Positions 2,910 through 47,265 of a stretch of DNA of 64,000 bases are shown here, in pieces. The stretch is taken from contig CAMASN010000001.1 in NCBI GenBank assembly GCA_945861025.1, positions 62,001 through 126,000 of the forward strand, read 5' to 3'. The position numbers were made by a program, and so were the translations under genes. Below the pieces are notes generated by a model, which was not told the origin of the DNA, searched no databases, and saw nothing but the letters and a program-made list of their open reading frames with translations. Every line of letters begins with the position of its first letter. The stretch's first letter is position 1. This DNA comes from Ferrithrix thermotolerans DSM 19514 (GTDB lineage Bacteria; Actinomycetota; Acidimicrobiia; Acidimicrobiales; Ilumatobacteraceae).

Positions 2910-3941
2910 CTAGCTGAATAGGTTGGCGCGTCCGTCGCCGGGTGCTGGCACATCGAGCCCGAGGTGCTGCCATGCAATGGGCATCGCGATGCGACCACGC
3001 GGCGTGCGGGCGAGCAGGCCTTGCTGGATCAAGAACGGTTCGTACACATCTTCGACCGTTTCGGTTTGCTCGCCGACGCTGATTGCCACGGTCGAGAGCC
3101 CAACGGGACCACCCCCGAACTGGACACAGATGGCGGTGAGAATGGCCCGGTCGACCTTGTCGAGGCCGCGCTGGTCGACGCCGAACACAGCGAGGCCATC
3201 ACGGGCCGTGTCTTGATCTATCGAGCCGTCACCGCGTACCTCGGCGTAGTCGCGAACGCGCCGGAGCAAGCGGTTGGCAATACGCGGCGTACCGCGACTG
3301 CGCCGAGCAATCTCCCATGCTCCCTGCTCAGTAATGCTCACACCCACGATGCTGGCGGTGCGACGCACGATGGATTCGAGTTCGTCGTCGTGATAGAAGT
3401 CGAGCCGAGCGACAAGGCCAAATCGATCGCGCAGTGGGCCGGTGATCATGCCCGTGCGTGTGGTGGCACCGACCAGCGTGAACGGCGGCAGCGGCAACCG
3501 GATAGACGATGCTGCTGGGCCTTTACCAACCACGATGTCGAGTTGGAAGTCTTCCATTGCTGGATACAGAATTTCTTCGACCGCGCGCGATAGCCGGTGG
3601 ATCTCGTCGATGAACAACACATCACCCTCGCCCAACTTGGTGAGAATTGCGGCGAGGTCGCCGGCTCGCTCGAGCGTAGGCCCCGAGGTGATGTGGAGGT
3701 GCCCGCCCATCTCGGCAGCGACAATGCCTGCCATCGTGGTCTTACCGAGCCCCGGAGGACCCGCAAGCAACAGGTGGTCGATGGGCTGGCTGCGCCGGCG
3801 GGCAGCCTCGATGACGATGGCGAGGTGTTCTTTGAGTTCGCGTTGACCGACGAAGTCGCTGAGTCGGCGCGGACGGAGCCCTATCTCGTCGCTTTCTTCG
3901 ACCTCGTTATTGACCCCTGGGTCAAGAAATTCTTCACGCAC
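2910..3941 (-). CDS. ruvB: Holliday junction branch-migration ATPase RuvB
   Basis: RuvB is the hexameric AAA+ motor that drives branch migration of Holliday junctions together with RuvA. The 343-residue protein has the Walker [10 protein letters not shown] (61-69), Walker [10 protein letters not shown] (109-117), sensor region GATTRTG, and the C-terminal winged-helix segment ending [17 protein letters not shown]. Its start overlaps the end of ruvA by 8 bases. It is the third gene of ruvC-ruvA-ruvB, and the whole set lies downstream of an SOS-type operator at ruvC. Confidence 0.97.
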
Positions 3942-4530
3942 GTCTGGCCCCTAACAACTGCAGCGCATCGCGCAACAGAGTAGAGGCATCGTCGCTTGGC
4001 GAAATCTCGCGTAGCGCATCGCGCACTTCTTCGGGCGCATAACCGAGTCCGTAGAGCGCCTCGCGTACGTCGCTGAGCACCGAACCGGCACTTGATCCGC
4101 CGCCGACTGCGATCGGATCGAGCATGGGGATGTTGAGGCGGTTCTTGAGTTCGATGAGGAGACGTTCGGCGGTCTTCTTGCCGACGCCTGGCACCATGCA
4201 CAACGATGCATTGTCGGCGCTGGCGACGATGTCGATGAGGGCCGAGGGCGTGTGCGTGCCCAAGATGGCCATCGCCATCGAGGGCCCGACTCCGTGCGTG
4301 CCAATGAGCACCTGAAACGTGGCCCGATCCTCGCGTCGCAAAAATCCAAACAGGGTCTGCGCGTCTTCGCGGATGTGATGGTGCACATAAACAAACACGT
4401 TGGCACCAGGCTCGAGTTCGGCCAATGTGCGCGGTGTGACGGTGACAAAATAACCGACCCCGCCTGCCTCGAGCAGCACCTCGCTGTCGGCGCTGCGCTC
4501 GAGCACTGCGCCACGTAATGAACCAATCAT
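3934..4530 (-). CDS. ruvA: Holliday junction DNA helicase subunit RuvA
   Basis: RuvA binds the four-way junction as a tetramer and loads RuvB. The 198-residue protein begins [11 protein letters not shown], has the acidic-pin/OB-fold N-terminus and the two helix-hairpin-helix motifs ([10 protein letters not shown] and [12 protein letters not shown]), and ends with a RuvB-binding three-helix domain ([16 protein letters not shown]). The ATG at 4530 overlaps the ruvC TGA (ATGA), fixing this start over an upstream ATG 20 codons earlier. A flexible Gly/Ser linker around GGGSSAGS joins the last domain. Confidence 0.96.
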
Positions 4531-5060
4531 CGCAAGCCACCAGTTGCTTCTCGTACACGTTGACGCAACGGCGCCATCGCGAGGTGACACAACGCCAACG
4601 CCGCAGCGTCAGCCGCGTCGGCGGGTTTCGGAACCGCCGACAGGCCGAGTCGGGCTTGAACCATCTTTTGAACCTGCGCCTTGTCGGCGGCGCCCCAACC
4701 AGCCACGGCGCCCTTCACTTGATTAGGGGTGTATGTCACAACTTCGCAGCCACAAAGCCATGCTTCGGCCAAAGCAAGCCCACTGGCCTGCGCAACGCTC
4801 ATCGCGGTGCGCACGTTGTTCTGAAAGAACACCTGCTCAACAGCCACCACGTGCGGACGAAACTCGATCAGCAACGCCGTGAACTCTTCGCGAAGTTCTC
4901 CAAGTCGCTTGGGCAAGGGGTCTGCTGGCGCAGTTTTGATGACGCCAAGACTGAGCGCTATTGCTGATCCAGGTCCGCTGGCTTGCACTGCTGCGTATCC
5001 GCAGCGGGTGAGACCCGGGTCGATGCCGAGTACTACAAGAGGCTCATCGGGCGAGCGCAT
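4527..5060 (-). CDS. ruvC: Crossover junction endodeoxyribonuclease RuvC
   Basis: RuvC cuts Holliday junctions symmetrically to resolve recombination and stalled-fork intermediates. The 177-residue protein has an RNase H-like fold with visible catalytic acidic residues: Asp14 (GIDPGLTRCG), Glu75 (VAVEQVFFQNN), and Asp148/Asp151 (KPADAADAAALALCH). I chose the ATG at 5060. Another ATG three codons upstream lies inside a perfect LexA-type palindrome, and a still longer form would read through the promoter. The spacing suggests a very short or absent 5' leader. First gene of ruvCAB. Confidence 0.95.
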   Translation of the reverse strand: MRSPDEPLVVLGIDPGLTRCGYAAVQASGPGSAIALSLGVIKTAPADPLPKRLGELREEFTALLIEFRPHVVAVEQVFFQNNVRTAMSVAQASGLALAEAWLCGCEVVTYTPNQVKGAVAGWGAADKAQVQKMVQARLGLSAVPKPADAADAAALALCHLAMAPLRQRVREATGGLR

Positions 5061-5062
5061 CA

Positions 5063-5076
5063 CGAACATAGGTTCG
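5063..5076. promoter_or_regulatory. LexA-type SOS box upstream of ruvC
   Basis: The sequence CGAACATAGGTTCG is a perfect match to the Gram-positive/actinobacterial LexA consensus CGAAC-N4-GTTCG, with one further matching base on each side (A...T). It ends two bases before the ruvC ATG, where it would cover the transcription start. A -10-like TAGCAT lies just upstream on the minus strand (5079-5084). DNA-damage induction of ruvCAB is therefore expected. No second copy was noticed at other gene starts inspected by eye, including the SRAP gene at 15.6 kb. Confidence 0.85.
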
Positions 5077-5184
5077 TATGCTATCAACCAGGTTTCGAGG
5101 TGCCGCGGATGAGGCCAGTTCATGTGGTGCGCTTCGCTACCCGTAGTCCTCATGCGCAGCTCGCATGTGTGTCATAGTCGGGGC

Positions 5185-7197
5185 ATGCGCCACCCTATTC
5201 AAGCCCTCTGTATTGCTGCCACGCTGGTACTCGGCGCCTGCGCCAGTAACTCGGGCGTACCGTCTAACTCCGCGGCACCCGGTTCAAGCGATGCCGTAGG
5301 CACCTCGCTACCGACACCGCTTGCAGATGCCGCTCCCCTAGCATGCGACCCGATCGATCCGAGCGCTTGTTTGCTTCCGTGGCCAAACGACGCATTCACG
5401 AAAGCCGATCCAACGTCCGCCACAGGTCGTCGTCTCGCGATCGATGCGAGCGCACCTCCGTCGAACGTTGGCGGCACGGCCATCGACGTCACCGACCAAA
5501 ATCGAGGCGATGGATTCTCGCCGGGTTCAGCGTTGCTGGTACGAGTTCCCGATCTAGATCTCGAAGCGTCGGGAGTTGCCCCCAGCACCCATATCGCAAA
5601 GTCACTCGAAGACGATGCGCCCATCGTGCTGCTCGATACAACCACCAATAAGCGCTCGCCGTACTGGGCCGAATTTGATGCTCACGCAGAGAACGATGAC
5701 CAGCGACTGCTGATGATCCATCCCGCCAGTTCACTTCTCGAAGGTCATCGCTATGTCGTGGTGCTCCAGAATCTGAAGTCGGCAACTGGCCCAATTGCAG
5801 CACCGCAGTCGTTTACGGATGCGCTGAGCAGCACAGATACACCCGACCGAGCAGCGCACCTTCAGGGTGTCGTCGCTGAAGCGACGGCCGCAGGCGCTGA
5901 CCCCTCAACGCTCTATATGGCTTGGGACTTCACGGTTGCAAGCGCGCAGAGTTTGTCGGCCAGGTTGCTGCACATGCGCAGCGACGCATACGAATCGGTA
6001 GGCGCAACTGCGCCGGTGTTCACGATTGAGTCGAGCGTCGATGAGGGCGCCGTGCGCACCATCCGTGGCACGTATTCAATACCAAATTATCTCACGGGAA
6101 CCGGTGCTCCCGGCTCGTCATTCGAGCTCGGCCCCGATGGGTTACCGCTACGCAACGCCAGCCAGCCAGATTTCGCTGCCCCCTTCCTGTGTCTTGTTCC
6201 GGTCGCGCCATCAGCCCCCACGCCTGTGGTGGTGTATGGGCACGGTCTGTTGGGCTCGCGCGAAGAGATCAACGGACTCCGTGGCGTAGTCGAACAAGGA
6301 TCACTGTCTCTGTGCGGCAGCGACTGGATCGGGATGTCCACCGAGGACATCGGCAATCTCGCCGGGATCCTCGGCGATATGAGTAACTTCAAGCAGCAGG
6401 CAGATCGCCTGCAGCAGGGCCTGCTCAACATGCAATTCCTTGGGCGCGCTATCAACGCCGCCAACGGGTTTTCCTCGAACGCCAGCTTCCAAAGCGCCAC
6501 ACAAGACCCGCTGATTGCTCCCGGCAAGACCACGATGCTCGGCAACAGCCAAGGCGGCATTCTCGGTGGCGCAGCTTCTGCAATCTCCACCGAATGGAGC
6601 AACGTGGTGCTCGGCGTTCCTGGCATCAACTACTCACTATTGCTGCCACGATCGTCCGACTGGCCCGAATTCGAATCCGTGTTCAACATTGCGTACACGG
6701 GCGACATCGAGCGAGTCATCACGCTTCAGCTCGTGCAGTTGCTGTGGGATCGCGGAGAGAACAACGGCTACGCGCAACATCTCACGCAGAACACCTACCC
6801 CGGCATCTCGCCGAAGAAGATCGTGATGATCGAGGCGTTTGGCGATCATCAGGTAACGAACGTGTCCACCGAAGTATTGGCCCGCACCATCGACGCAGGC
6901 GTGCACTCCCCTGCGCTACGTGCAGCGCGGAGTCCGGATGTGAACCCGTTTTTCGGTATCGATGCGATCACCGACAAAGAAGTCGATCGATCAATCTTGG
7001 TGCAGTGGGATTACGGCAATCCAGCACCGCCAACAGTGAATCTGCCGCCGACCGATCCGGAGTTTGGGGAAGACCCACACGGCAAAGGCTCGAGTGAGGC
7101 ACGAGTGATTCAGTTGGCGCTCGGATTCTTGCTCACCGGCAAGATCTCGATCCCGTGCGACGGCCCATGTGTAAGCGACAGCGTCGCGGGCGGCTAG
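5185..7197 (+). CDS. Exported lipoprotein with alpha/beta-hydrolase (lipase-like) fold
   Basis: The 670-residue protein starts with a lipoprotein signal (hydrophobic stretch then LGAC, lipid-bearing Cys19), so it should sit on the outer face of the membrane. It has an oxyanion-hole-type YGHGLLGS (351-358) and a serine-nucleophile elbow GNSQGG (Ser455). A late EAFGDHQV segment could supply Asp/His of a triad. The first 300 residues, with Asp/Pro/Ser-rich stretches, are of unknown role. The substrate cannot be told. The gene is on the opposite strand to its neighbours and splits the usual yebC-ruvC linkage. The ATG at 5185 was chosen because it opens the signal peptide. Confidence 0.75.
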   Translation: MRHPIQALCIAATLVLGACASNSGVPSNSAAPGSSDAVGTSLPTPLADAAPLACDPIDPSACLLPWPNDAFTKADPTSATGRRLAIDASAPPSNVGGTAIDVTDQNRGDGFSPGSALLVRVPDLDLEASGVAPSTHIAKSLEDDAPIVLLDTTTNKRSPYWAEFDAHAENDDQRLLMIHPASSLLEGHRYVVVLQNLKSATGPIAAPQSFTDALSSTDTPDRAAHLQGVVAEATAAGADPSTLYMAWDFTVASAQSLSARLLHMRSDAYESVGATAPVFTIESSVDEGAVRTIRGTYSIPNYLTGTGAPGSSFELGPDGLPLRNASQPDFAAPFLCLVPVAPSAPTPVVVYGHGLLGSREEINGLRGVVEQGSLSLCGSDWIGMSTEDIGNLAGILGDMSNFKQQADRLQQGLLNMQFLGRAINAANGFSSNASFQSATQDPLIAPGKTTMLGNSQGGILGGAASAISTEWSNVVLGVPGINYSLLLPRSSDWPEFESVFNIAYTGDIERVITLQLVQLLWDRGENNGYAQHLTQNTYPGISPKKIVMIEAFGDHQVTNVSTEVLARTIDAGVHSPALRAARSPDVNPFFGIDAITDKEVDRSILVQWDYGNPAPPTVNLPPTDPEFGEDPHGKGSSEARVIQLALGFLLTGKISIPCDGPCVSDSVAGG

Positions 7198-15724: not shown

Positions 15725-16897
15725 ATGACAGAACTCGGGTTTTTGCCCTTCGACGCAGACAACCATTACTACGAAGCAACCGACGCCTTCATCCGCCACA
15801 TCGAGCCATCGATGGCCAAGCGATGCATGCAGTGGGTTGAGCTCGACGGTCGGCAACGCCTGCTTGTTGGCGGTGCGATCAACCGGTTCATCCCGAACCC
15901 AACGTTTAATCCGGTCTCGAAGCCAGGCGCGCTCGATTTGTACTTCCGCGGCAAGGTGGCCGGATCAGACCTTAAGTCGATGTTCGGCGAACTCGATCAG
16001 ATCAGCCCGGCCTATCGCGACCGCGATGCTCGCCTCGCGTTGATGACCGAACAGGGTCTCGACTCAGCCTTCTTTTTTCCCACCCTTGGCGTAGGAATGG
16101 AAGAATCGCTCAAGCACGACATTCCAGCGCTGACCGCTGCGTTTCGCGCATTCAATCGCTGGGTCGACGACGACTGGGGCTTTGCCTACAAGAACTCGAT
16201 TTACGCAGCGCCATACATCACCTTGGCCGATCCACAGTGGGCGCTCGAAGAACTCAACTGGGCGATCGGCCGCAATGTGCGCATCATCGTGATGCGCACC
16301 GCACCGGTGCCTATTGCGGGCGGCCTCACCCGCTCCCCCGGAGACACGGTGTACGACCCATTCTGGGCGCGTGCCGCCGAAGCAGGTGTCACGGTTGCGT
16401 TCCACTCGGGCGACGCCGGCTATGGCAAGTACATCGACGACTGGGAACCGGGCGGCGCATTCGAGGCATTCAAGTTCTCCGCGCTGCGCACCATGACGAG
16501 CGATCGGGCACCATTCGACATGTTTGCGGCGCTCGTGTGCCACGGCGTGTTTTCTCGTCACCCCGACCTTCGCTGCGCCAGCATTGAGGCCGGCAGCGAA
16601 TGGGTGCAGCCGCTCCTGAAGAAGTTCAAGAAGGCCTACTCCCAAAACCCGTACATGTTCCCAAGCGATCCAATCCAGCAGTTCCGTGACCATGTGTGGG
16701 TGGCGCCGTTCTACGAAGACGACATCCGCAATCTCGCCGATGCCATCGGAACCGAGCGCGTGCTGTTTGGCAGCGACTTCCCACACGCTGAGGGTCTCGC
16801 TGTGCCAGTCGCATTCATCAACGATCTACACGGCTTCACCGACCAAGAGGTTCGCCTCATCATGCGTGACAACGCTCGCGAACTCATCGGAGTCTGA
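15725..16897 (+). CDS. Amidohydrolase family 2 (ACMSD-like) metal-dependent hydrolase
   Basis: A 390-residue TIM-barrel amidohydrolase. It keeps an N-terminal DADNHYYE segment, a central VAFHSGDAG (metal-ligand His region), SIEAGSEWVQPLL, and the C-terminal metal-site motif LFGSDFPHAEG. Family members hydrolyse or decarboxylate small ring-cleavage products; the substrate here is unknown. A good ribosome-binding site (GAGAGGAAG at 15711-15719) precedes the ATG. The next gene starts two bases after its stop and encodes a second, degenerate member, so the two products may act together. Confidence 0.88.
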   Translation: MTELGFLPFDADNHYYEATDAFIRHIEPSMAKRCMQWVELDGRQRLLVGGAINRFIPNPTFNPVSKPGALDLYFRGKVAGSDLKSMFGELDQISPAYRDRDARLALMTEQGLDSAFFFPTLGVGMEESLKHDIPALTAAFRAFNRWVDDDWGFAYKNSIYAAPYITLADPQWALEELNWAIGRNVRIIVMRTAPVPIAGGLTRSPGDTVYDPFWARAAEAGVTVAFHSGDAGYGKYIDDWEPGGAFEAFKFSALRTMTSDRAPFDMFAALVCHGVFSRHPDLRCASIEAGSEWVQPLLKKFKKAYSQNPYMFPSDPIQQFRDHVWVAPFYEDDIRNLADAIGTERVLFGSDFPHAEGLAVPVAFINDLHGFTDQEVRLIMRDNARELIGV

Positions 16898-35698: not shown

Positions 35699-36448
35699 GT
35701 GGCTTCCTCGACGCACCCATTTCTCGACAGTTCGCACCCGCTGGCCTTCGCCCATCGAGGTGGAGCCAGCGACGCGCCCGAAAACACAATGCCCGCGTTC
35801 GAATACGCGATCAACCTTGGTTATCGCTACATCGAGACCGACGTCCAAGTTACATCTGATGGCGTGCTGGTGGCCTTCCATGATTTCAATCTCAAGCGAA
35901 CCTGCGGCATCGATAAGCGCATTGGTGAGATGACGTGGCAAGAGGTCAGCGAAGCGCTCGTCGATGGCGCCGCGCCGATTCCAGCCTTTGATGAACTGAT
36001 GAGCGCCTGGCCCGACGTGCGCGTAAATATCGACTGCAAAACCGACGCAGCAGTAGACGCATTGGTTGCCGCACTGCAGACATCTAACGCGCTTGAGCGC
36101 GTGTGCGTTGGCGCTTTTAGTGATCGCCGAATGCGCAAACTACGCGCACTGCTGGGCCCTGGTCTGTGCTCGGCACTCGGTCCTCGAGGGGTCGCATCGC
36201 TCCTCTACGGACGTATGCGCACAACGACGGCGCTCACTGCACAGGTGCCAGTTCGCCAAGGTCCGCTCACGGTAATCAACGAGCGATTCATGAAGCGGGC
36301 AAACCGTCTCGGTCTACAGGTGCACGCTTGGACAATCGACGAAGCCGACGAGATGATCCGTCTACTTGATCTGGGTGTGCACGGCATCATGACCGACAAG
36401 CCAATGGTGCTGCGCGACGTTTTAATCGCTCGCGGCATGTGGTCGTGA
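35699..36448 (+). CDS. Glycerophosphodiester phosphodiesterase (GDPD)
   Basis: A 249-residue TIM-barrel phosphodiesterase that releases glycerol 3-phosphate from deacylated phospholipid head groups. It keeps the catalytic HRGG (19-22), the PENTMPAFEYA segment, metal-binding ETDVQVTSDG and AFHDFNLKRT (second catalytic His), and the C-terminal VHAWTIDEADEM...GVHGIMTDKP. There is no signal peptide, so it is cytoplasmic. It starts with GTG at 35699. Its stop overlaps, in the old GTGA arrangement, the start of the decayed ggt gene. Confidence 0.92.
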   Translation: MASSTHPFLDSSHPLAFAHRGGASDAPENTMPAFEYAINLGYRYIETDVQVTSDGVLVAFHDFNLKRTCGIDKRIGEMTWQEVSEALVDGAAPIPAFDELMSAWPDVRVNIDCKTDAAVDALVAALQTSNALERVCVGAFSDRRMRKLRALLGPGLCSALGPRGVASLLYGRMRTTTALTAQVPVRQGPLTVINERFMKRANRLGLQVHAWTIDEADEMIRLLDLGVHGIMTDKPMVLRDVLIARGMWS

Positions 36449-36882
36449 GCGCTCCGTTTAGCTCGACCCGCTCTGCCGGTTCGATGGTTGCATCTGCTGA
36501 TGACCTTGCCACCCAGGCGGGCATGGCGATTCTGGCCTAGGGCGGCGACGGCCAACCACAGATTTTGTTGCAGTGAGCGGCGCGCTTCTTTCACCATGCC
36601 CAGAGTCCAGTGGCCGCTGTCCACGCCGCACGTTGGGTGCTCAACGGACCAATCACGGGTTTTGACACAAGGACCGCCCCGCAGGGACAGCACGTACTCG
36701 TCGAAGGTCACGCCCCAACCGAGTGACGCGCGGAACTCGAGGCACGAGGGCATACCGTGCGTGTGATAGCCCCATGCGACAGTGCCGTTGGACATGCCCA
36801 CGCCATTGTGGTGGAGCCCGACGGGATGCTGGGCGGAGCTGCTGACCCTCGGTGTCGCATCGAATCAGTTGCCGGCGCGTAG
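36445..36882 (+). pseudogene. ggt: Decayed, internally deleted gamma-glutamyltransferase gene
   Basis: One reading frame of 146 codons carries both ends of a gamma-glutamyltransferase but not the middle. From a GTG overlapping the GDPD stop it reads RSAGSMVASADDLATQAGMAILA (the GGT N-terminal pattern), then a TAG (36538-36540). It then jumps to GGDGQPQILLQ, normally near the end of the small subunit, followed by a TGA, AARFFHHAQSPVAAVHAARW, VLVEGHAPTE, another TGA, and the C-terminal VGHAHAIVVEPDGMLGGAADPR. About 390 residues, including the catalytic Thr, are missing. The join lies at GGC-GGC, a Gly-Gly pair common to both ends, suggesting deletion between short repeats. It cannot make an active enzyme. 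Confidence 0.88.
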
Positions 36883-36942: not shown

Positions 36943-38133
36943 ATGCGCGTTGACACGAACTTCTTTTGCACCGTTCCGATGCCCGACGCCGGCGACCCTG
37001 CAATCGCAGCCACGGCCCGCCGCTACGGCAACGATGCAGTCATCGAGTGCTACAAGAACTTGGTCGACTGGAGCCGCACCGCCGACACGTTGGGCTTCGA
37101 CACGATGTGGCTCACCGAGCACCACTTCCAGCACGAGGGCTACGAGGTCTTACCGAACCTCATCTTGTTCGGTATGCATCTGGCTCAGCTCACCAAAGAC
37201 CTGCGCCTCGGCCAAATGTTCAACGTGGTGCCGCAGTGGAATCCCATGCGGCTCGCCGAAGACTTTGCATTAGCCGACATCATCACCGGCGGCCGCATGG
37301 AGTTTGGTGTCGGTCGCGGCACCGTGCCTCGCGAAGCGTGGGCGCTGGGCACCGTGGTCGCAAGCGGCGACAACGCAATGAGCGGCGAACACGACCGCAT
37401 CAACCGCGAGGTCTTCGAAGAGTCGATGGAGATCATCAAGTTGGCTTGGTACAACGAAACGTTCTCGTACCGTGGCAATCAGTTCGTGCTGCCTCCCGAC
37501 GACGTGCCTGACCGTGGCAGCTACGTCGATCACCTCACCTTGATCCCCAAGCCACTTCGCACGGTCGACATCTACCAGCCGGTCACGTCGCCCGAGACAA
37601 TCGAGTACGTGCCCCGCGCTGGACACAAGGCCGTGTACTGGTTGCAGAACGCCGACAGCCAGAAGCAGAAGTGGGATCGTTACGCCGAGATTCGAGCCGA
37701 CATGGGCCAGCCCGTTGCTGCGGGCGACGACAGGTGTCTCGTGCTGAACCTGCATGTCGCCAAGACCCGCGAGCAGGCAATGGTCAAGGGCCGCCCAGGG
37801 CAGGACGAGTTCAACAAGTTCTTAGCGCCGTACGGCCGCTTCAGTAGTTACCGCAATGCCGACGGCTCAAAGGTGGCGTTCGATCACTGCCCAACCGTCG
37901 AGGAAAGCAACGATCAAAAGATTCAGATCGTCGGATCAATCGACGATGCGGTCGACGCCATCGGTTATTGGCGAGACCTGCTCGATCTGAAGCACATCTG
38001 CTTCTTCCTCGATTACCCCGGCCTCACCCGCGACGAGATGAACGAGCAAATGCACCTCATTGCCGAAGAAGTGTTTCCACGGCTTGGTGAGCCAATCGAG
38101 CGTCGGCCCATCACCGGAACGCCGTTGGTCTAA
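36943..38133 (+). CDS. LLM-class flavin-dependent monooxygenase
   Basis: A 396-residue bacterial luciferase-like monooxygenase. It has TADTLGFDTMWLTEHHFQHEGYEVLPN (the family EHH motif), LAEDFALADIITGGRMEFGVGRGT and IYQPVTSPETIEYV. The length and EHH motif point to FMN/FMNH2-dependent two-component oxygenases. It is the first gene of LLM-amidohydrolase-SDR-ABC transporter, all on the plus strand with tight spacing, so oxidation of a small imported molecule is likely; the substrate is unknown. The stop is two bases before the next start. Confidence 0.9.
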   Translation: MRVDTNFFCTVPMPDAGDPAIAATARRYGNDAVIECYKNLVDWSRTADTLGFDTMWLTEHHFQHEGYEVLPNLILFGMHLAQLTKDLRLGQMFNVVPQWNPMRLAEDFALADIITGGRMEFGVGRGTVPREAWALGTVVASGDNAMSGEHDRINREVFEESMEIIKLAWYNETFSYRGNQFVLPPDDVPDRGSYVDHLTLIPKPLRTVDIYQPVTSPETIEYVPRAGHKAVYWLQNADSQKQKWDRYAEIRADMGQPVAAGDDRCLVLNLHVAKTREQAMVKGRPGQDEFNKFLAPYGRFSSYRNADGSKVAFDHCPTVEESNDQKIQIVGSIDDAVDAIGYWRDLLDLKHICFFLDYPGLTRDEMNEQMHLIAEEVFPRLGEPIERRPITGTPLV

Positions 38134-38135
38134 TA

Positions 38136-39332
38136 GTGCTGCTTCGATCGGCCACCCTTGCCGACGGACGCATTGTCGATGTTCGAATCTGCCTCGACAC
38201 CATCGACGTGGTCGCTTCATCGCTCCCGGCGCAACCCGACGAGCAAGTGCTCGATCTGTCGGGTCACTTATTGTTGCCGGCGTTTGTAGAGCCCCACGCT
38301 CACCTTGACAAGGCGTTCTTGTCAGAGCGGTTCGCAAACGACGCTGGCGATCTCATGGGCGCCATTGTTGCCATGCAGCAAAATCGCCATCTCATTACGT
38401 ACGCCGACACAGTAGAACGCGCCGAACGAGCAGTTCGCTTGATGGTGCGCAATGGCGCAAGCGCGATACGCACCCACGCCGATACAACATCCGAAAACGG
38501 CCTTATGTCGGTTGAAGCCCTTGCCGAAGTGCGCCGCCGCACCGCCGACATTTGCGACATTCAAATCGTGTCGCTCGTGAGTTGGCCTGTCACCGGCACT
38601 GCCGGAGCTGACTCACGGGCACTACTACGCGAGGCGTTACAGAATGGTGCCGACCTCGTTGGTGGCTGTCCGCACCTCGACGACAATCCAGCCGAAGCCA
38701 ACGAAACGCTGCTCGAGATCGCTTCCGAATATCAACGCGGTGTCGACCTACACACCGACGAAAATCTCGACCCTACGAAGAACGGTCTTGAAGATCTGGC
38801 TCGCCGCGTCTTGTCGTCAGGCTTCGCGTACGGAGTCGCCGCCAGCCATTGCGTCAGCCTCGGTTCGCAGACGCCCCGCCGGCAGGACGAGATTGCCGAG
38901 TTGGTCGCAGCAGCCAACATCAGCGTGGTGGCACTGCCACATACCAACTTATTCCTGCAGGGGCGCGAACATCAGCAGTCGATGCCGCGAGCAATCACAG
39001 CGGTGAAAGCACTGAGAGCCCGCAACGTCAACGTGTGCGCCGGCGCCGACAACCTGCAGGATCCGTTTAATCCGATGGGACGGGGCGATCCACTCGAGAC
39101 TGCTTCGCTGATGGTGATGCTCGCTCATCTGCAGCCCCATCAGGGTCTCGACGTCGTGAGCGCACACGCGCGTCGGGCACTCGGGCTCACGCCGATTTTG
39201 GTCGAGTCCGGAAACATCGCTGATCTCGTTGCTCTCAAGGTCGACTCCGTGCGCGAAGCACTTGCATTCGGCCCGCCGGAGCGCATCGTGTTGCACCGCG
39301 GCGTCGTGGTTTCGCCTACAAACGGGCACTGA
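38136..39332 (+). CDS. Amidohydrolase, cytosine deaminase-like
   Basis: A 398-residue metal-dependent deaminase/hydrolase of the CodA type. It has the N-terminal PAFVEPHAHLDKAFL (HxH metal site), RTHADTTSENG, the second metal His in DLHTDENLDPTKNG, HCVSLGSQTP, and the metal Asp in CAGADNLQDPFNPMGRGDPLE. Related enzymes deaminate cytosine, creatinine or triazines or open N-heterocycles. It starts with GTG at 38136, two bases after the LLM gene. It likely acts on the same substrate family as that monooxygenase. Confidence 0.88.
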   Translation: MLLRSATLADGRIVDVRICLDTIDVVASSLPAQPDEQVLDLSGHLLLPAFVEPHAHLDKAFLSERFANDAGDLMGAIVAMQQNRHLITYADTVERAERAVRLMVRNGASAIRTHADTTSENGLMSVEALAEVRRRTADICDIQIVSLVSWPVTGTAGADSRALLREALQNGADLVGGCPHLDDNPAEANETLLEIASEYQRGVDLHTDENLDPTKNGLEDLARRVLSSGFAYGVAASHCVSLGSQTPRRQDEIAELVAAANISVVALPHTNLFLQGREHQQSMPRAITAVKALRARNVNVCAGADNLQDPFNPMGRGDPLETASLMVMLAHLQPHQGLDVVSAHARRALGLTPILVESGNIADLVALKVDSVREALAFGPPERIVLHRGVVVSPTNGH

Positions 39333-40995: not shown

Positions 40996-41867
40996 GCCAG
41001 AGCGTCTTAGTAGCTGCAAACGAACCAATCGTTGACCCGGGTGCACCGACTGCATCCGATCAACGCGGCTTCGAGCGGAGCCGCGTCATCGGACCCGCAG
41101 CCGTGCTCGTGATCTTCGTTGCGCTGTGGCACTACATGCACTCCGACGGCATGCGGCGATTCTTCGACAAGCCAGGATTCTTGTTGCCCGCCCCCGAAAC
41201 CGTCATAAACGATGCGTTCTTCAACTCGCTCGCTCGTAGCAAGTTGCTCACAGGCCTCGGCTGGACGACACTGGTTGCGCTCACTGGCCTGCTCATCACC
41301 ATCGTTGTCGGAGTTTCGCTGGCCGTGATGATGGCCCAAGCGAAATGGGTCGAGCGCGCTACGTATCCCTACCTCGTTGCGCTGCAGGCAATCCCGATCT
41401 TGTCCATCGTTCCCGTCATCAACTCGGTATTTGGCGGCGGCATCAGCTCACGCCTCTTTGTTTGTGTGATGATTTCAATCTTCCCCATCGTCACGAACAC
41501 GCTCTTTGGTCTCACCTCTGCCGATGTCGGCCAGCACGATTTGTTCACGCTTCGCGGCGCATCTCGGCGCACTCGCCTCTTCAAACTGCAGTTGCCGTCG
41601 GCGATGCCCGCCATCTTCACTGGGTTTCGAATCTCCGCCGGTTTGTCGGTGATCGGTGCGGTTGTTGGCGAGCAGTTCTTCCGCAAGGGAAGCAAGCCAG
41701 GCATCGGCATCGTGATGGAGACCTACCGTCAAAAGGGCATCTACCCGCAGACATACGGCGGGCTCATCTTGGCCGCTGGCCTCGGAATCGCTATGTTTCT
41801 GGTCTTCGGATGGATCTCAAAGCGCGTTGTCGGCCACTGGCACGAATCGGCTCGCAAGACCACCTGA
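40992..41867 (+). CDS. ABC transporter permease, nitrate/taurine/NMT1 type
   Basis: A 291-residue inner-membrane protein with six or so spans (first at about 32-48) and the coupling EAA-type loop DLFTLRGASRRTRLFKLQLPSAMPAIFTGFRI. This matches SsuC/TauC/ThiX permeases for small organic nitrogen or sulfur compounds and thiamine precursors. Its start overlaps the ATP-binding gene by four bases (ATGA). Confidence 0.92.
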   Translation: MSQSVLVAANEPIVDPGAPTASDQRGFERSRVIGPAAVLVIFVALWHYMHSDGMRRFFDKPGFLLPAPETVINDAFFNSLARSKLLTGLGWTTLVALTGLLITIVVGVSLAVMMAQAKWVERATYPYLVALQAIPILSIVPVINSVFGGGISSRLFVCVMISIFPIVTNTLFGLTSADVGQHDLFTLRGASRRTRLFKLQLPSAMPAIFTGFRISAGLSVIGAVVGEQFFRKGSKPGIGIVMETYRQKGIYPQTYGGLILAAGLGIAMFLVFGWISKRVVGHWHESARKTT

Positions 41868-41949
41868 TAACTTCTCAGTTTTATCCACCCGAGGTCTGCT
41901 CGCAGTCCTCACAACTCAGCGTGAACAAACAACAAAGGAGCAATCAATA

Positions 41950-43161
41950 ATGCAACACCGTTTCAGCAGTTCGCTGCTTGCACTCGCCGTAGCGGGAGGC
42001 CTCGCCCTCACCGCCTGCGGTAGCGACGCCACGCCCGTCACCACCACACCAGCTGATGGTTCCACGGTCGACACCGCCACAGCAACGAGTGACTCAGCTG
42101 CACCAACAGCCGACGTCAGTCTTGCCGGTATCTGCCCAGACGAAGTCAAGGTTCAGACCGACTGGTGGCCAGAGGCCGAGCACGGTTTCTTGTACAACAT
42201 GATCGGCGAAGGCTTCATCTCTGACGCCGCCGGCTACAAGGTCACCGGACCACTCATGGCTGGTTCAGTCGACACTGGCGTGAAGCTCACCGTGCTTGCT
42301 GGCGGCGGCGCTGCTGGCTTCCAGAGCGACACCCAGTTGATGTACGCAGACAAGTCGATCTTGCTCGGCTTCGTGTACACCGACGAGGCCATTCAGAACT
42401 CTGAGAAGTTCCCAACCGTGGCCATCGAATCTGGTTACGAGAAGAACCCACAGATGATCATGTGGGACCCCGTCACCTACCCAGATGTCACCGGCATCAA
42501 GGACATCGGCACCCAGAAGATCACCGTTCGCTACTTCGGTGGCGCGGCGTACATGGACTACTTGACCTCTACCGGCATCTTGTCGAAGGACCAGGTCGAC
42601 GGTTCGTACCAGGGCGACCCAAGCCTCTTCGTTGCTGACGAAGGCAAGTCAGCCCAGCAGGGCTTCGGCTCGGCCGAGCCATTCGCCTACGCGAACGAGA
42701 TTCAGGATTGGCTCAAGCCAGTCAAGTACGAGTACATCAACGATGTCGGCTGGGAGAACTACGCCGAATCAATCGCCACCTTGCCTGAGAACATCACCAA
42801 GTACGCCGATTGCTTCAAGAAGCTCGTCCCAATCATCCAGCAGTCAGCTGTTGACTACATCACCGATCCAACCAACGGCAACGCCGTGCTCCTCGACGCC
42901 GTCAAGAAGTTTGGCGACGCAGGCAGCGGCTGGGTCTATAGCGAAGGCACCGCCGCCTACGCAGTTGAGACCATCAAGAAGGATGGCCTCGTTGCTAACG
43001 GCCCCGACGGCGTCATGGGTTCGTTCGACACTGCCCGCGTCGATGCGCTCATCGCTAAAGCAATCCCTGTCTACACCGCACAGGACAGCCCACCAAAGGC
43101 TGGCCTCAAGGCTTCAGACATCGTGACGAATGAATTCATTGACACGAGCATTGGCCTCTAA
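41950..43161 (+). CDS. ABC transporter substrate-binding lipoprotein, NMT1-like
   Basis: A 403-residue exported lipoprotein with signal ending LTAC (Cys23), then a Ser/Thr/Ala linker. A binding domain follows, starting VKVQTDWWPEAEHGFLYNMIGEGF and containing LTVLAGGGAAGFQSDTQLMYADKSILLGF, a pattern of the NMT1/ThiY group. The WWPEAEHG region resembles pyrimidine-precursor binding proteins, so a pyrimidine- or heterocycle-type ligand is possible (inference). There is a strong ribosome-binding site, AAAGGAG at 41934-41940. Codons such as CCA, TTG and AAG look more uniform than in neighbours, suggesting high expression. A strong terminator follows. Confidence 0.9.
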   Translation: MQHRFSSSLLALAVAGGLALTACGSDATPVTTTPADGSTVDTATATSDSAAPTADVSLAGICPDEVKVQTDWWPEAEHGFLYNMIGEGFISDAAGYKVTGPLMAGSVDTGVKLTVLAGGGAAGFQSDTQLMYADKSILLGFVYTDEAIQNSEKFPTVAIESGYEKNPQMIMWDPVTYPDVTGIKDIGTQKITVRYFGGAAYMDYLTSTGILSKDQVDGSYQGDPSLFVADEGKSAQQGFGSAEPFAYANEIQDWLKPVKYEYINDVGWENYAESIATLPENITKYADCFKKLVPIIQQSAVDYITDPTNGNAVLLDAVKKFGDAGSGWVYSEGTAAYAVETIKKDGLVANGPDGVMGSFDTARVDALIAKAIPVYTAQDSPPKAGLKASDIVTNEFIDTSIGL

Positions 43162-43219: not shown

Positions 43220-43482
43220 CGCACGAGCCACTGTGTTCCTTCAACCCCGTCCCCCCTCGCACCACCCCCACCCCCATCCACCACTCACCTCTCACCTCTC
43301 ACCACTCACCACTTCCCTTCACCACTTCCCTTCACCACTTCCCTTCAACAAACGGTTTGTTGAAGACCTTTGGTCGAGCCCCAACCTCTTGTCTTCAACA
43401 AATCCCCGATGGAGGTGCGCGAGGTGGATGAGGTGTGCGAGGTGGATGAGGTGCGCGAGGTGGATGGCGGACGAGTGGTGGA
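43220..43482. repeat. Gene-free low-complexity interval with two tandem repeats
   Basis: The interval 43162-43482 (321 bases) has no credible gene. After the terminator comes a C/T/A-only tract (about 43232-43345) that includes three exact copies of the 13-mer ACCACTTCCCTTC (43308-43346). Then comes the 60-bp palindromic element (43343-43402), and then three 18-bp units GAGGTGYGCGAGGTGGAT (43412-43465) just before the stop of the hydrolase gene. The strong purine/pyrimidine asymmetry could favour unusual DNA structure or slippage. Confidence 0.85.
43343..43402 (+). repeat. 60-bp palindromic element, copy A
   Basis: Starts with the near-perfect palindrome CTTCAACAAACGGTTTGTTGAAG (11-bp arms), whose right arm also forms a 12-bp stem, TTTGTTGAAGAC (43356-43367) with GTCTTCAACAAA (43391-43402), around a 23-base loop containing GGTCGAGCCCCAACC. 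An inverted copy lies at 47156-47215, matching at about 54 of 60 positions. Both lie in C-rich/G-rich flanks sharing the 14-mer ATCCACCACTCACC (43276-43289 here). Confidence 0.85.
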
Positions 43483-47136: not shown

Positions 47137-47155
47137 TAGCCGCCGCACTCAGCGT

Positions 47156-47215
47156 TTTGTTGAAGACAATAGGTCGGGGCTCAACCAATTGTCTTCAACA
47201 AACCGTTTGATGAAG
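47156..47215 (-). repeat. 60-bp palindromic element, copy B (inverted)
   Basis: An inverted copy of 43343-43402. On the plus strand it reads stem TTTGTTGAAGAC (47156-47167), a 23-base loop, stem GTCTTCAACAAA (47191-47202), then CCGTTTGATGAAG completing the palindrome. Its outer flank (47216-47266) is G-rich, with two exact 14-mers GGTGGGGGCGGCTT (47225-47252) and the complement of the shared 14-mer ATCCACCACTCACC at 47253-47266. Confidence 0.85.
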
Positions 47216-47265
47216 CAAAGTGGTGGTGGGGGCGGCTTGGTGGGGGCGGCTTGGTGAGTGGTGGA

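Follow-up and report, generated by a model that had tools for sequence, protein, structure and literature searches.

Bacterial pseudogenes that shrink by deletion have been described (PMC2916853, PMC522871), and the locus analyzed here resembles those cases in that a single-copy gene was hit by a deletion and by nonsense mutations, with intact orthologues in relatives. It is unlike them in its setting, a freshwater actinobacterium with intact genes around the broken one and not a host-restricted pathogen or symbiont. On the protein side, the best full-length matches of the intact sister protein among solved chains were the PF01019-type proteins PDB 2nlz (named cephalosporin acylase; 241.7 bits) and 2i3o (GGT-related protein; 192.6 bits), which differ from the remnant in being intact proteins from other organisms. 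A literature search for Ilumatobacteraceae with gamma-glutamyltranspeptidase found nothing, and a search for Ilumatobacteraceae with pseudogene returned only work that was unrelated by title.

The window, i.e., the whole stretch of 64,000 nucleotides analyzed, is carried by genome G000, a single draft assembly of 2.89 Mb in 104 contigs that is about 95.6% complete. On its plus strand, positions 36445-36882 form one frame whose translation contains both ends of a gamma-glutamyltransferase-family (GGT-family; PF01019) protein and three in-frame stops, as had been claimed from the letters alone (Table 1). The first 32 and the last 113 codons of the gene are kept. The start of the frame overlaps the stop of the upstream glycerophosphodiester phosphodiesterase (GDPD) gene by 4 bp (GTGA, 36445-36448), and its terminal TAG lies at 36880-36882. 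Both halves match the GGT family. The retained N-terminal part shared 79% identity across 39 residues with the beginning of the intact gene in the relative G008 (E = 5.4e-12), and residues 30-145 of the remnant showed 83% amino-acid identity to G008. A Pfam search with the remnant gave PF01019 (E = 7.2e-10) at 38.7 bits against a curated cut-off of 27, covering profile positions 411-509 of 512; scored from the genomic frame, the match reached 36.5 bits. The solved GGT small subunit 5hft_B also matched the remnant (E 1.6e-10).

Table 1. Features of the remnant and of the adjoining genes (window positions)
Feature	Position	Strand	Evidence
GDPD (glycerophosphodiester phosphodiesterase family), intact, upstream	35699..36448	+	PF03009, E 1.5e-42
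Retained 5' end of GGT-family gene, 32 codons, last codon now a stop	36445..36540	+	translation
In-frame TAG stop at junction	36538..36540	+	translation
Deletion junction, single GGGCGGC copy left (7-bp direct repeat)	36540..36546	+	both ends in G008
Retained 3' end of GGT-family gene, 113 codons + stop, two internal TGA	36541..36882	+	PF01019
In-frame TGA stop	36574..36576	+	translation
In-frame TGA stop	36724..36726	+	translation
Luciferase-like monooxygenase (LLM), intact, downstream	36943..38133	+	PF00296, E 3e-33
Amidohydrolase (cytosine-deaminase-like), intact, next in cluster	38136..39332	+	PF07969

The GGT-family gene of G008 (contig CANNMD010000002.1) is like the remnant in its place between GDPD and LLM, in the GTGA overlap and in the terminal TAG, but it has residues 33-410 and no internal stops. 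Compared with it, the remnant lacks exactly 1134 bp, or 378 codons (residues 33-410), which make up the central three quarters of the gene, and the alignment outside this deletion is ungapped, with no other indel. The internal deletion of the original prediction was borne out, while its size, put there at about 390 residues, had to be corrected. In the query from the intact sister protein, the first residue of 5hft_B aligned with residue 327, which corresponds to about residue 329 of the gene and lies inside the deleted segment; we take this first residue of the mature small subunit to be the catalytic threonine. Judged from this alignment, the deletion has removed the maturation and catalytic threonine region, so the remnant, which passes the family cut-off with the self-processing catalytic threonine region absent, would not be a working PF01019 member. 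Against TIGR00066, the NCBIfam gamma-glutamyltransferase equivalog, the intact sister protein scored 238 bits and stayed below the cut-off of 357.85. From its profile and structure matches, the protein is nearer to the cephalosporin-acylase/GGT-related branch than to classical GGT. Because of its proximity to 2nlz and 2i3o and its sub-cut-off NCBIfam score, "GGT-family protein" is the safe name; the earlier assignment as a gamma-glutamyltransferase holds for the PF01019 family and not for classical GGT.

In a DNA search the flanking genes were matched in all 9 genomes of the genus, and the GGT-family gene was present without internal stops in 8 of the 8 others (6 complete, 2 cut by contig ends). 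The products of G001, G003, G004, G005 and G006 aligned with the G008 protein over 521-522 residues with no gap and no stop, and that of G007 aligned over 490 residues, up to the contig end. The gene of G002 is in two pieces, on two contig ends. Intact copies in the order GDPD-GGT-luciferase-like had been expected in sister genomes and were found; the truncated arrangement, whose conservation in several species would have spoken for a functional locus, was sought in the 8 other genomes of the genus and occurred in none, and the remnant has stops and changed invariant residues. No second PF01019 match was found in G000, at its completeness of about 95.6%. Among the 221 genomes of the family 94 had a PF01019 match, and among the matches listed from them only that of the window contained internal stops. 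A gene that is disabled, present in one copy and represented by an intact orthologue in place in relatives answers to the definition of a unitary pseudogene, and the remnant is almost certainly a unitary pseudogene of a GGT-family gene. With the PF01019 match, the stops and the intact orthologues at the same place, the proposed GGT-derived pseudogene is upheld. This is ordinary bacterial gene loss, though unusually readable.

The sequence GGGCGGC is present at both ends of the deletion in G008, 1134 bp apart, and one copy is kept in the window, where the predicted GGC-GGC join was found at 36541-36546. Each copy encodes Gly-Gly, and the two lie in one codon phase, which explains why the reading frame survived the deletion. 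The 7-bp repeat also occurs at these ends in G001, G003 and G004, and the match is shorter in G005 and G006 (5 bp) and in G007 (3 bp). As G007 has 3 bp and not the 7-bp match at these places, we infer the ancestral repeat. Of 809,628 pairs of breakpoints in the G008 gene that are separated by 300 bp or more, 0.10% share at least 7 bp. Repeats of this length and minimum separation nevertheless number 100 in the gene, and when the spacing is fixed at 1134 bp, 7 bp are reached at 8 of 435 positions, a number that one 7-bp repeat alone would give; the repeat evidence is therefore moderate. Deletion mediated by the short direct repeat, through slippage or recombination, is favored, not proved. Of the earlier claim that the deletion took place between short direct repeats, the coincidence of the ends with a 7-bp repeat in G008 stood, and the mechanism should be read with this qualification.

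Decay is visible in the part that remains. The remnant differed at 8 of the 91 columns invariant among relatives, whereas the leave-one-out counts for the 8 relatives together came to 11 of 717 (Fisher p = 5e-4, approximate because columns are common to several rows and branch lengths differ). The pairwise dN/dS of the remnant versus G008 was 0.116, a value close to the 0.098 of the G008-G007 comparison of the entire intact gene. In a count over the trio, nonsynonymous to synonymous changes were 12:15 on the G000 side versus 8:22 in the two sisters, a difference that was not significant (p = 0.18). These ratios fit a recent loss and alone do not show relaxed selection. Conserved positions are eroding, yet the pairwise dN/dS is not raised, and the loss is therefore taken to be recent. 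Rough dating from 15 nonsynonymous or nonsense and 19 synonymous changes put it in approximately the final 20% of the branch, with an interval of about 2-53% across three assumed background ratios; the estimate is only indicative because three of the listed nonsynonymous trio rows were not polarized to the G000 lineage by outgroups. The simplest reading is that the gene was lost recently, in something like the final fifth of the branch, with this wide interval.

The neighboring genes were compared with G008 in the same way. None of nine (acyl-CoA synthetase, aldehyde dehydrogenase, GDPD, luciferase-like monooxygenase, amidohydrolase, SDR, two ABC transporter genes and a candidate binding-protein gene) contained a stop or a gap, and their dN/dS ranged from 0.030 to 0.201; the GGT-family gene was the sole broken one among the genes compared. 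The GDPD gene had a dN/dS of 0.033, the monooxygenase gene (97% identical) 0.043 and the amidohydrolase gene 0.076. The highest value of the cluster, 0.201, belonged to the candidate substrate-binding protein gene at 41827-43158 (+), which lies beside the ABC transporter genes and had no match in Pfam or NCBIfam at E 1e-5.

A collapse of the gene by the assembler between the two short repeats was considered, as the genome is a draft of 104 contigs and the junction falls exactly on a 7-bp repeat. Usual assembler word sizes far exceed such a repeat, which counts against a collapse. Moreover, a collapse cannot produce the three in-frame stops, which lie at the junction and past it, nor the 8 changed invariant columns out of 91, and on either flank the alignment to G008 stays at about 90%. 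An artefact of this kind is therefore very improbable. Still less credit is given to a remnant kept as functional, be it as a short coupled peptide, an antisense ORF or an RNA. The frame carries no frameshift, an antisense ORF of 198 amino acids (36205-36801, minus) spans the remnant and the pairwise dN/dS is low; however, the sense frame is broken by the three stops, and the low ratio is explained by the estimate that the gene was probably lost after the greater part of the divergence from G008 had taken place. The antisense ORF was rejected as fortuitous because the matching frame of G008 and G007 has stops.

The least probable alternative, given hardly any weight, is an old and selected truncation in which stop-codon readthrough yields a rearranged mini-protein. 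It draws on the deletion being in frame, but this length follows from the Gly-Gly repeats lying in one phase, and in the G008 gene 58 of the 100 repeats of at least 7 bp are in phase. The remnant also lacks the catalytic region, and TGA is the ordinary stop of the GDPD gene and TAA that of the monooxygenase gene. The preferred reading is loss of a gene, probably without function in what is left of it. In the ancestor, GDPD and the luciferase-like monooxygenase would have been separated by a GGT-family (PF01019) gene of about 523 codons, intact and present in one copy. In the lineage of the species, a single 1134-bp deletion between the GGGCGGC repeats would have removed residues 33-410, and nonsense and missense changes would have built up before or after it. 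Measured against the branch that leads to the closest relatives the loss is recent, and the other genes of the cluster are still under purifying selection. The locus offers a clean example of gene loss in a freshwater bacterium, by an in-frame short-repeat deletion and point decay with the cluster kept. The GGT-family step of this uncharacterised cluster looks dispensable, and an annotation pipeline may report a GGT at this place, or nothing at all, though the activity is gone.

The arrangement of the locus varies within the genus. The 4-bp overlap of GDPD and the GGT-family gene exists in G000, G008 and G007, the latter two being the only ones among six relatives checked. The two genes are about 50 bp apart in G001 and 562, 704 and 2177 bp apart in G003, G004 and G005, and they lie on different contigs in G002 and G006. 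The overlap of the old start with the GDPD stop, from which coupling had been deduced, is confirmed as GTGA, and the tight coupling is a young feature, present in three genomes. These three are also the smallest genomes of the genus, with 2.7-2.9 Mb versus 3.5-4.8 Mb, although G007 is only 88% complete and G008 85%.

A GGT-family gene was located directly upstream of the monooxygenase gene at 10 of 80 loci, and at 45 of the 80 (counted from the table of loci) GDPD and the monooxygenase were no more than about 90 bp apart, without an intervening GGT. In a monooxygenase tree of 69 rows, the 10 GGT rows and the window formed one side of a branch with a support of 99/85; one change was obtained in 98% of the bootstrap trees, and the GGT side was nested among rows without GGT. 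This suggests that the GGT-family gene was inserted once into the cluster and later lost in the window species, a reading that rests on the gene tree and whose polarity depends on the root. It is possible, though rather doubtful, that the gene entered the cluster once in one clade, that the species is reverting to the ancestral GDPD-monooxygenase order and that the untranslated remnant may lower downstream expression for as long as it persists. If this is true, the locus preserves a history in which one enzyme of the cluster was gained and lost.

Just outside the GGT clade, G019 carries a GGT of 72% identity at another place in its genome. Locus L100, which from matching contig coordinates we infer to belong to G019, keeps the order aldehyde dehydrogenase-GDPD...monooxygenase-amidohydrolase (3400-5950); where the GGT-family gene would sit it has about 2.6 kb of different sequence, and its GGT is on another contig. 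A distant monooxygenase paralogue (45-47% identity) lies beside an opposite-strand GGT-family gene in G012:C161, G133:C817 and G015:C5, hinting at repeated association of the two families. Several public MAG titles do not fit: L077, L084, L108, L111 and L118 are entitled Bifidobacterium breve, and L072, L075, L076, L090 and L091 Ferrithrix thermotolerans. Their monooxygenase rows fall among Ilumatobacteraceae-type sequences, and the records are probably mislabelled. Elsewhere in the window, the short segments 43258-43321 and 47155-47230 match G008 at nearly one spot, around 16730-16850 of the L049 stretch when reverse-complemented. The two matches, one of which is inverted, suggest a dispersed repeat.
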